In this document: positions 10,309-12,984 of the stretch, one piece after another
How positions within the stretch are numbered: position 1 is the stretch's first letter
Layout: each line of letters starts with the position of its first letter
Source: a virus
IMG/VR virus record: IMGVR_UViG_3300045125_000025
Coordinates: 1 to 36,097 of that record
Length of the DNA stretch: 36,097 nucleotides
Strand: one strand, 5' to 3'
Position numbers and translations under genes: made by a program
Notes under the pieces: generated by a model
Told to the model about the DNA's origin: nothing
The model's input: the letters and a program-made list of their open reading frames with translations, nothing else
The model's database searches: none

Positions 10309-10455
10309 TCATCCTTTCGCTGCTAGGTAGAGTCCGACGTTAGCCGCCGCGTACCCGGCGTAGGCGATGGCAAGCCCGTGCTTGCCATGCCACGCCAGGT
10401 CTGCGGACACCCACACGTAAATCACGCCCGTCAGGGCGATGAGCCACGGTGCCAT
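10309..10455 (-). CDS. 48-residue membrane protein
   Basis: The ATG at 10453-10455 overlaps the sliding-clamp stop (TGATG). The protein is two short hydrophobic helices, APWLIALTGVIYVWVSADL and GLAIAYAGYAAANVGLYLA, separated by a His/Lys turn. The pattern of a two-helix hairpin with YAAANVGL is familiar from small phage inner-membrane proteins of unknown function. Starts further upstream in the same frame overlap the clamp gene and are less likely. Confidence 0.65.
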   Translation of the reverse strand: MAPWLIALTGVIYVWVSADLAWHGKHGLAIAYAGYAAANVGLYLAAKG

Positions 10456-11564
10456 CAGTCGGCCGCCAGCGGCATGATCACGCCCGTGTACGGGCCGCAC
10501 CGCAGCAGCACACGGCTCTGCCGGTCGGTGGCGTACACGTCAACCTGCGGCTCTTCGTCCAGCGGAATCGACCGCAAGAACTCAGCCAGAAATCTTGGGT
10601 CGACCTTTGTGCCGCTGGCGGTGCCGGCCTGCACGACCTCACACTTCACGGTGCTTTCGCCGTACTCGGCAGACCGGGCCGACAGCACGAGCTTCCCGCT
10701 GGTGTAGTCCAGCTCGATGCCCTTGCTCTGCTCGCTGGTCACGATGGCCGCAGACCGCACGGCGGCAAGCAGCTGCTGCACATCGAGCACCGTAGCCGTG
10801 CCCTCGGGATCGCCGACCACATCGCGCCACCTCGGGAATCGCCCGTCGATGAGCGTGCCGGTTACGGTCGTGCCTTCCAAGTCGAACCGCACTTCCTTGG
10901 CGTTCGCCTCAACCTGCACCGAGCCGTTGCCAGTGGCCATCGCCGCAACGATGTCCAGCACCCTGCGTGGCACCAGCGTTGCCGAGTCATCCACGGCCTG
11001 GTCGGTCTCGGTCTCAACGCACGCCAGCCGCCGGCCGTCTGTCGCCACCCACGTTGGGTTTCCCTTTTCAACCTCAATCAGCACGGCACCAAGTGCGTAC
11101 CTGCTGCTTTCGGTATCGGTGGCGTACGTGGTCGCCCTCGCCGCCCTGGCGAACTGGTCAGCAGGCAGCCGGCAGATTGCCTTGAGGCTGGTGGGCTCCC
11201 ACGTCGGGTACTCGTGCACATCCTCAGTGGGCAGCTCCCACTTGCCGCCACCGCACTTGACGGTCACAGTCGTGCCGTTGGCCTTGAGCGTCACGCTGTC
11301 GCCGGTCGCCGCCCGCACGATGGCCAGCAGCCTTTCGTGCGGCACAAGAAACGCCTCGCACATCTCGCCGATGGTGCGGTCAATCCGCACCTCGAGGTCT
11401 GTTCCAGAGATGACGCCTTCGCCGATGCGGCAGTTGGCCAGTATTGGCTTCGCTGGTCGCGTGGGCGTCGCCGGCTTGATCGCCACCAAGGCGTCAAGAA
11501 GCTCGGCCCTCGCCATCGTCAGGGTAGTACTGGAAACCTTCGGCTTCGTAGCGGTTGCGGTCAT
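10455..11564 (-). CDS. dnaN: DNA polymerase III beta subunit (sliding clamp)
   Basis: This intact 369-residue protein is the usual length of bacterial beta clamps (about 366). Three repeated clamp domains are recognisable: domain 1 with ILANCRIGEGVISGTDLEVR and a EYPTWEPTS loop; domain 2 with VEKGNPTWVATDGRRLACVE, the conserved TDGRRLA; domain 3 with GKLVLSARSAEYGESTVKCE and a C-terminal YTGVIMPLAAD, matching the typical VxMPMRL end. It encircles DNA and tethers the replicative polymerase. No polymerase gene is in the window, so it presumably recruits host Pol III. Start at 11564 is supported by AAAGGA upstream. The preceding small gene overlaps by about 70 bases. Confidence 0.93.
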   Translation of the reverse strand: MTATATKPKVSSTTLTMARAELLDALVAIKPATPTRPAKPILANCRIGEGVISGTDLEVRIDRTIGEMCEAFLVPHERLLAIVRAATGDSVTLKANGTTVTVKCGGGKWELPTEDVHEYPTWEPTSLKAICRLPADQFARAARATTYATDTESSRYALGAVLIEVEKGNPTWVATDGRRLACVETETDQAVDDSATLVPRRVLDIVAAMATGNGSVQVEANAKEVRFDLEGTTVTGTLIDGRFPRWRDVVGDPEGTATVLDVQQLLAAVRSAAIVTSEQSKGIELDYTSGKLVLSARSAEYGESTVKCEVVQAGTASGTKVDPRFLAEFLRSIPLDEEPQVDVYATDRQSRVLLRCGPYTGVIMPLAAD

Positions 11565-11918: not shown

Positions 11919-12141
11919 TGAGCACCTCGATTCCACGCGGCTTGCCATGAGCCATGCGGATGTGGCCCTTTCGCTCAAGAGCCTCAAGGTGCCCAGTGAC
12001 GCCGTGCGGCGACTTGATTGAGAACGCTGCGGCAATCTCTCGCACGGTCGGCGAGTAGTACCCCATGTTCGCCTTGATCCACTCCAGCACCTCACGCTGG
12101 CGAGCGGTGAGCGGAAGCGGTTCGGTGGTCTCTGTGGTCAT
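11908..12141 (-). CDS. LexA-type winged-helix protein without peptidase domain
   Basis: This 77-residue protein, MTTETTEPLPLTARQREVLE..., matches only the N-terminal DNA-binding domain of LexA. TARQREVLEWIKANMGYYSP is helix 1, TVREIAAAFSIKSPHGVTGH is the helix-turn-helix with the SP-x-GV-x-H-L-x-ALE-KG hallmark, and ERKGHIRMAHGKPRGIEVL is the wing. The self-cleaving S24 peptidase domain is absent, so it cannot be inactivated by RecA in the LexA way. The start at 12141 overlaps the upstream stop (ATGA). It may be the phage repressor, an antagonist of host LexA, or an early-gene regulator. It is the only LexA/Cro-like protein I see. Confidence 0.82.
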   Translation of the reverse strand: MTTETTEPLPLTARQREVLEWIKANMGYYSPTVREIAAAFSIKSPHGVTGHLEALERKGHIRMAHGKPRGIEVLSAE

Positions 12142-12984
12142 TGCAAATCCTCCTCCTTGAGTTTCACGGCGGCCGCAAGCGCGGCCACTTCCTTCGGCGT
12201 GCGGTACGCGGCCGGCTGGTAACGGTCCTTCCACACCTTCGGTGCCGGCTTGTCATCAGGCCGGCGGCCTGGCTCGCGGTGCGTTCCGCCCTTGTCCTGG
12301 CACCGCTGCAGCCATCCCACGAGAAACCGCCGCCAGTTCCGTTTGCCGCACCGCTTCGGGTTCGCCTTCAGCCAGGCCGTGGCCTTGGCCAGTTCCTGGT
12401 CAAGAACGGCACCGGGAAAAGCTGTGGCCCATTCCTGGCGGTCTGCGTCAGTGATCCCGCACCAGCCCGCGTCAGCATCCCACGACACGACAGGCTTCGC
12501 CCGCGAGCGAGACGGCGTAGCCGGCTTGCTCGTGGGAACCGGCGCAGCCGGTATGTATTCTTCTCTCCTGTCCTCTCCTCTCCTCTCCTCTGGTGACGGT
12601 GCAGCGTCACCACCATGTGACGCTGATGCGTCACGCGGCCTTCGCCGGTACCCGTCCTGCCGGCGGGCGTGAAGCGTGCGAGCCTTGGCAGCCTGGGAAA
12701 AACGCTTGTCCCAGCCCTCAACAGTCGCGTGCGGCCCGTCAAAACGGAGCCAGCCCACGCGAGCCACGGCCAACCAAAACGCCTCGTCACCGCCGCAGGC
12801 CGTCGCAATGCGGGCCGGTGTGGCCCGGATCACGCCGTCCGCTGTCACCATCGCGGCCCACGACCACAACTGAATGAGACGCCAGCCGACAACCTCAACA
12901 GGTAGGCCGGTCTCGTCCACCAGCTTCGAGCACCTCGGGCTTAGTGCCGAGGTTGCAGTCAATGGGCACCCACTCACCGGCCAT
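12138..12984 (-). CDS. Phage replication initiator-like protein (frameshifted near start)
   Basis: It starts MAGEWVPIDCNLGTKPEVL at an ATG preceded by AGGAGG. After one indel near 12920 it continues KLVDETGLPVEVVGWRLIQL, a winged-helix N-terminal domain, then RVGWLRFDGPHATVEGWDKR and FSQAAKARTLHARRQDGYRR. This arrangement is common in phage replication organiser and DnaT/DnaD-like proteins. A charged low-complexity hinge (EERRGEDRREEY) leads to a C-terminal helical domain with KRCGKRNWRRFLVGWLQRCQ, the YNW-type end that contacts single-stranded DNA or helicase. About 281 residues. The iteron-like cluster at 12559-12634 falls inside it, as in lambda O. It probably recruits the host DnaB helicase. 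Confidence 0.7.
12559..12634. other. Candidate replication origin inside the initiator gene
   Basis: A polypyrimidine tract (TCCTC pentamers, 12559-12590) is followed by four hexamers in alternating orientation: GTGACG at 12593, CGTCAC at 12605, GTGACG at 12617, CGTCAC at 12629. They are spaced exactly 12 bases apart start to start, so each pair forms a dyad and the unit repeats every 24 bases. This regularity is stronger than coding needs require. Position inside the initiator gene parallels phage lambda, where iterons for protein O lie within O. Confidence 0.5.

Follow-up and report, generated by a model that had tools for sequence, protein, structure and literature searches.

The window analysed here, a 36,097-nt contig of a planctomycete-type phage from IMG/VR taken at its full length, carries on its minus strand a gene for a replication initiation protein (Table 1). 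The gene product matched the PHROG family phrog_2509 ("replication initiation protein") at E=1.2e-11 over residues 10-217, a span that takes in both N- and C-terminal parts, and the protein of a close homologue (L008) matched phrog_2509 at 3.9e-18; an earlier, sequence-only reading of this DNA had proposed an initiator-like protein, and the family match bears this out. Pfam gave no match for the window initiator, its C-terminal part included, and no sequence relation to lambda O was found by Pfam or PHROG, the best PHROG being 2509 and the O-like phrog_345 being unmatched. Nearby genes on the same strand encode a Bet-like annealing protein, an HNH protein, a Dam-type methyltransferase (adjacent to the initiator gene), a LexA-like HTH protein (directly downstream of it) and a clamp-like processivity factor. 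Near the initiator gene, the minus-strand gene at 10455-11564 matched phrog_947, the processivity factor of a phage DNA polymerase (E=4e-57). Within 12924-12927, the window has one extra base (CTCGAAGCTGG, compared with CTCGAGCTGG in every homologue), near 12925, and the frame is broken after residue 19 or 20. This base is probably an error in the sequence or else a mutation that inactivates the gene, and the array described below is untouched; that the initiator copy in the window is frame-broken was counted against reading the locus as an origin.

In the AlphaFold model of L008, a confidently predicted winged helix is followed by a helix at residues 97-118 with a pLDDT of about 65, and the hinge between this helix and the C-terminal domain was predicted to be disordered. 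The best solved-structure matches of the winged helix, all weak, were plasmid RepA-type initiators and CRP-type winged helices at Z about 6; the RepA-type structures 5kbj, 4pt7 and 4pql (Z about 6, rmsd 4.7-4.8) were tied with the CRP-type ones. Fold searches of the PDB returned no match with E below 0.001, and the missing lambda O structure in their lists carries no weight. A RecA stretch over 26 positions, the sole match of a PDB profile search, was judged spurious.

Table 1. Features of the initiator gene and of the repeat array within it (window positions)
Feature	Position	Strand	Remarks
Replication initiation protein gene	12138..12984	-	Start ATG at 12984, stop at 12138-12140; open body 12141-12923; basis: homologue starts
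Winged-helix domain, about residues 10-90	12714..12957	-	AlphaFold model of close homologue L008, pLDDT 89-97 over most of the domain
Isolated fifth GTGACG half-site within the gene	12785..12790	.	Gene nt 194; position matched in homologue L003
Putative recognition helix AKARTLHARRQDGYRRRPR, about residues 97-115	12639..12695	-	Directly precedes the sites; basis: helix prediction, word association, near-invariant residues
Dyad 1, GTGACGCTGATGCGTCAC	12617..12634	.	
Dyad 2, GTGACGGTGCAGCGTCAC	12593..12610	.	24 nt from dyad 1
NNANA tract, CCAGA GGAGA GGAGA GGAGA GGACA GGAGA GAAGA ATACA	12554..12593	- (coding strand)	52% GC by direct count
C-terminal helical domain	12141..12506	-	Conserved among planctomycete-type homologues; DnaT domain (PF17948) there in other family members

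Four hexamers with a strict 12-base phase had been reported at this place, and all four were recovered: GTGACG at 12593 and 12617 alternates with CGTCAC at 12605 and 12629, with exactly 12 nt from each hexamer to the next. Together they make up two perfect 18-bp dyads, GTGACG-N6-CGTCAC, found nowhere else in the contig. When both strands of the 36,097 bases were considered, the array was the sole 60-bp stretch in which any 6-mer occurred four times without overlap. An alternating series of four copies of a 6-mer, spaced exactly 12 nt, was seen once; from base composition, about 1e-6 such series would be expected. The array lies mid-gene, ∼350 nt from the start of the initiator gene. When synonymous codons of the window gene were reshuffled with the protein held fixed, P was 0.04 for repeat pairs and 0.02 for copies of the best 6-mer, and when the gene was scanned blind with the same crude statistic, the peak fell at body nt 613-684 and not at the array. 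Because of these modest P values and the blind peak elsewhere, a claim made from the window sequence alone would be weak. A GC-skew change had been suggested as a check, and no switch was seen at the site. In the window, as in four complete phage genomes, cumulative skew ran monotonically; its extremes lay at the contig ends, and there was no switch at the array; GC skew is therefore uninformative here as an origin marker.

Adjoining the sites, the coding strand carries a purine-rich, strand-asymmetric tract of eight pentamers of the form NNANA. The sequence-only reading had described a 30-base polypyrimidine tract; such a tract is present at 12559-12591, with a period of 5, but is better described as NNANA pentamers. 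NNANA was preferred to polypurine, which was rejected as the tract rule: in L007, L202 and L224, runs stay 7-9 pentamers long although uninterrupted purine covers only one pentamer; the NNANA rule is also kept where purine purity fails, as in GGACA, AGATA and TAACA. NNANA runs had a mean length of 6.5 pentamers, compared with 1.7 in synonymous shuffles, and the periodicity (z=25 at lag 5, z=22 at lag 10) is out of step with the codons. In the window, the first base of the tract is also the last base of the last half-site; overlapping first pentamers are CCAGA, CTAGA and CCACA, and this overlap fixes the register between sites and tract. When five phage sequences were examined whole, this tract was in each of them the only purine-rich one of period 5.

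Whether the dyads persist where the protein diverges had been named as a check; this test is the decisive one, and they do persist. The first homologue scan returned 53 viral relatives, and the comparison came to include more than 150 homologues, epsilon15 and phiPSA1 among them. In these homologues, a half-site array was found at the same hinge; array and tract stay, while the amino acids and the word change together. The word is lineage-specific and changes in all copies together, being GTGACG, GTAACG, TGTCCGC, TGTCCGA, CGTACGC, GTGGCGC, GTGCGC, TGTCCGCA or CGTACGCA, to which a later scan added GTAGACGC. Homologues of 52-76% identity had class-specific arrays at this same place, as did epsilon15, SPN1S, phiPSA1, Olaya, CP2 and VW-6S, six reference phages in which the same layout is joined to other C-terminal domains (a DnaT domain in epsilon15, SPN1S and VW-6S). 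The change of word is concerted: replacement of D by N and of S by L converts both arms, GTGACG..CGTCAC becoming GTAACG..CGTTAC, and TGTCCGCA becomes CGTACGCA in four copies (three direct and one reversed) with the amino acids differing. Half-sites were spaced 12-12-12 in classes arranged >< and 11-13-11 in classes arranged >><<, and the last intact half-site usually lay 1-3 nt from the tract, or one further site away. Half-site density was 40 per kb in the hinge, compared with 0.4-1 per kb in the flanks (0.5 per kb in the upstream flanks). In L057 (epsilon15; gene nt 55-101) and in L149 (gene nt 149-194), a second array with the word of the hinge array was observed towards the 5' end of the gene, its place depending on the class. 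Such a class-matched 5' array, found in the epsilon15-type (TGTCCGC) and GTAACG classes, is possibly an autoregulatory or an accessory origin site; since some classes carry it, not every site need be an origin.

Constraint at the DNA level was assessed by synonymous shuffling with the protein fixed in 35 representatives, which gave a Fisher P of about 4e-44 for the arrays and about 5e-56 for the period 5 of the tract, both values being inflated by relatedness. Synonymous heterozygosity was measured in 77 Proteobacteria-type genes that had been collected by N-domain patterns, with the tract not used in selection; it was 0.301 for the winged helix and 0.441 for the helix, compared with 0.080 for the array and 0.000 for the tract. 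Among 15 GTGACG genes, array heterozygosity was 0.09, and six-fold degenerate codons were invariant (TCA in 15/15 at two serines, CGT in 15/15). Arginine was encoded by AGA or AGG in 77/77 cases within the tract, compared with 108/846 elsewhere. When whole genes were scanned blind, the strongest window fell at the tract in 18 of the 35 representatives, where the chance for each is about 12% (P about 2e-8); several of the others peaked at the second 5' array, and the window's own gene peaked elsewhere. The earlier statement that hinge codons fail to explain the dyads accordingly holds across the family, by shuffles and synonymous diversity, while the window alone gives it only modest support.

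The amino acids that vary with the word were located by nearest-neighbour prediction of the word from protein windows. Accuracy was 0.45-0.63 from most winged-helix windows, compared with 0.82-0.86 from residue 93 on, and the first well-predicting windows (residues 93-105) precede the site-coding codons. In the helix, A99, K100, R102, R108 and R113 are near-invariant and surround class-specific residues, HARRQDSY occurring with GTGACG, [ML]EDARRK with TGTCCGA and LTAKR with GTAACG. These comparisons indicate that the half-site word goes with a single helix, at residues about 97-112, and not with the winged-helix domain; the winged helix was rejected as the main carrier of specificity, as near-identical winged helices occur with different words and predict the word less accurately. 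When L018 was compared with L044 or L027, DNA identity was 93-100% across almost the whole N-domain and, for the most part, above 90% in the C-domain, but 25-33% in the helix-plus-array segment, and L021 and L025 repeated this pattern. Near-identical flanks around a divergent helix-plus-array segment mean that helix and sites move together: genes that are nearly the same in other respects have exchanged the two as one cassette. A different exchange was observed between L040 and L045, whose C-domain coding DNA is identical but whose N-domains and arrays are unrelated; here a module has been cleanly exchanged, and the border lies close to the tract.

As positive controls for the blind array scan, lambda and P22 were examined. 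The scan placed both the lambda iterons (annotated at 349-433) and the P22 origin (annotated at 353-497) at gene nt 349; in both lambda O and P22 gene 18, the most purine-rich 40-mer directly follows the array and is AT-rich without a pentamer period. Generality was examined by querying viral contigs with the tract DNA alone, which returned initiators of PHROG families 270, 9474, 9327, 3729, 5810/345 and 2509. Significant repeats were found in the 72 nt upstream of the tract in 39/43 non-redundant genes, compared with 1/41 and 6/40 for control stretches of the same genes. The search also brought to light a family of short initiator-like proteins (LWCLGSESDG..; L235, L252, L261 and about 20 similar contigs) with an AGAGA pentamer tract after a winged-helix-like part; no clear dyads were found beside this tract, and the sites may be elsewhere. 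The same pentamer tract also forms the end of an ORF in L237 and L305 that contains long tandem repeats (PRTFQAN units, CGGACA words). Literature searches, which reached few subscription journals, found no paper on these arrays or on the pentamer tract. The pentamer repeat, the specificity that follows the neighbouring helix and the recurrence in many phage initiator families had been overlooked by the sequence-only reading.

Taken together, these data make it very probable that the hinge-coding stretch is a phage replication origin of the lambda type, situated inside the initiator gene and working like oriLambda. The hexamers had been put forward as candidate initiator-binding sites of such an intragenic origin, and the family comparison of array, tract and word supports this. 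The case rests on comparative evidence because the window dyads only modestly exceed what the protein forces. The anatomy of the locus, its DNA-level constraint, the concerted change of half-sites, the association of word and helix, the cassette exchange and the recurrence of the layout are established here; a replication start at the array, half-site binding, tract opening and helicase loading are what we infer. In the mechanism that we propose, the initiator would bind the GTGACG half-sites in pairs through its winged helix and, above all, its basic helix at residues ∼97-112, and the array, with about one half-site per 12 bp, would form a nucleoprotein complex. The duplex beside the array would open at the NNANA tract, and the C-terminal domain, following the disordered hinge, may recruit the host helicase-loading machinery, as the DnaT domain of relatives suggests.

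Three other explanations were weighed against a lambda-type origin. The sites could be an operator through which the initiator or another regulator, such as the neighbouring LexA-like HTH protein, controls transcription or translation of the initiator gene, with the origin elsewhere. The size of the dyads suits dimeric repressors, the LexA-like gene is directly downstream and the TGTCCGC and GTAACG classes have the second matched 5' array; however, the main array is in the middle of the gene beside a conserved pentamer tract for which an operator has no need, the upstream flanks are nearly devoid of copies, the word goes with a helix in the initiator protein, and the array sits where the proven origin of lambda and the annotated one of P22 are found. 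We therefore consider an operator unlikely.

It might also be argued that codons for a charged, disordered hinge (DASAS..GGDAAPSPEERRGEDRREE) yield the repeats by low complexity alone, as would agree with the predicted disorder and the modest shuffle signal of the window-only test (P 0.02-0.04). Across the family, however, the DNA layout stays while the amino acids change, six-fold codons are invariant, the tract has zero synonymous variation and its period of 5 is out of the codon step, so that low complexity is very improbable and has largely been refuted already. Least credible of all is a site of another type, namely a point of recombination or module exchange, a partition or packaging site, or a methyltransferase target. 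Module boundaries do lie at the helix and at the tract, and a Dam-type methyltransferase gene is adjacent, but a class-specific word matched to the initiator helix would then have no role, the half-sites contain no Dam target, and the layout is tied to initiator genes across many families.

Beyond the origin itself, we propose tentatively, and with slightly less than even confidence, that these loci form a large unnamed class of phage origins, in which helix and half-sites are encoded back to back as one cassette of ∼110 bp that abuts, in fixed register, a universal NNANA element; common to non-homologous initiators, this element would be a signal for strand opening or helicase loading that is read as single-stranded DNA. 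If this is right, origins could be read from sequence in many temperate phages without annotation by means of the half-site array and the NNANA tract. The recognition helix and DNA word of about nine classes would offer a set of natural examples from which to derive a protein-DNA recognition code, and could be used for swapping replicon specificity in laboratory phages, and a pentamer element shared by unrelated initiators would bear on sequence cues beyond AT-richness for strand opening and helicase loading.

Among known systems, the nearest kind is the intragenic origin of the lambda type (PMC7466680, PMC6022878). In lambda, gene O carries oriLambda mid-gene, with repeated initiator sites that are inverted-repeat iterons of about 18-19 bp (PMC7466680) and with a strand-asymmetric purine tract beside them (PMC5043065). 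The window likewise has repeated initiator-type sites under DNA-level constraint within an initiator gene, inverted repeats (two 18-bp dyads, other classes being arranged >><<) and a strand-asymmetric purine tract adjoining the sites, placed as in lambda and P22. The likeness extends to P22 gene 18 and the O genes of Stx phages, with mid-gene sites and a purine tract; in lambda and P22, the position in the gene is the same and the sites were found by the same blind test. Unlike lambda, the initiator belongs to another family (phrog_2509, not the O-like phrog_345), and its words are unrelated and vary with lineage. The tract, moreover, is not an AT-rich unwinding element, which counts against the lambda-type reading: its GC content is ∼50% with an NNANA period of 5, compared with 32.5% in lambda and 22.5% in P22, both without that period; an unwinding element may lie elsewhere. 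The system is probably lambda-like in its working, yet outside the lambda O family and without an AT-rich tract, and on our best reading the sites, the cassette structure and the pentamer tract are new with respect to lambda-type origins.

The family of the window gene includes the phrog_2509 and phrog_9474 initiators of epsilon15, phiPSA1 and SPN1S, which have the same array and tract with other words and other C-terminal domains; the epsilon15 record has no origin annotation at the array position. Initiator repeats inside the initiator gene are also known from SPP1, whose gp38 has binding sites in the direct repeats of oriL, inside gene 38 (PMC6316719), and from the lactococcal Tuc2009 rep, annotated "contains origin of replication". 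SPP1 differs in its AT-rich unwinding element and its second origin, and in Tuc2009 rep the repeats are present without a long NNANA run (4 pentamers). The NNANA tract may also be compared with the DnaA-trio and the DnaD Recognition Element, in which a motif of short period on one strand lies next to initiator boxes. The core of the latter in Bacillus oriC is 5'-TnnT-3' (PMC10201434), and the strand opposite NNANA reads TNTNN, giving 5'-TnnT-3' once per pentamer; TnnT is a loose motif, and its presence on that strand follows from the NNANA rule. By analogy, NNANA may be a parallel to the DnaD Recognition Element, from which, as from the DnaA-trio, it differs in having a period of 5 rather than 3, in lying within coding sequence and in occurring in phages. 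Sequence-specific binding of one strand of an unwinding element has been described for plasmid Rep proteins (PMC4081077).
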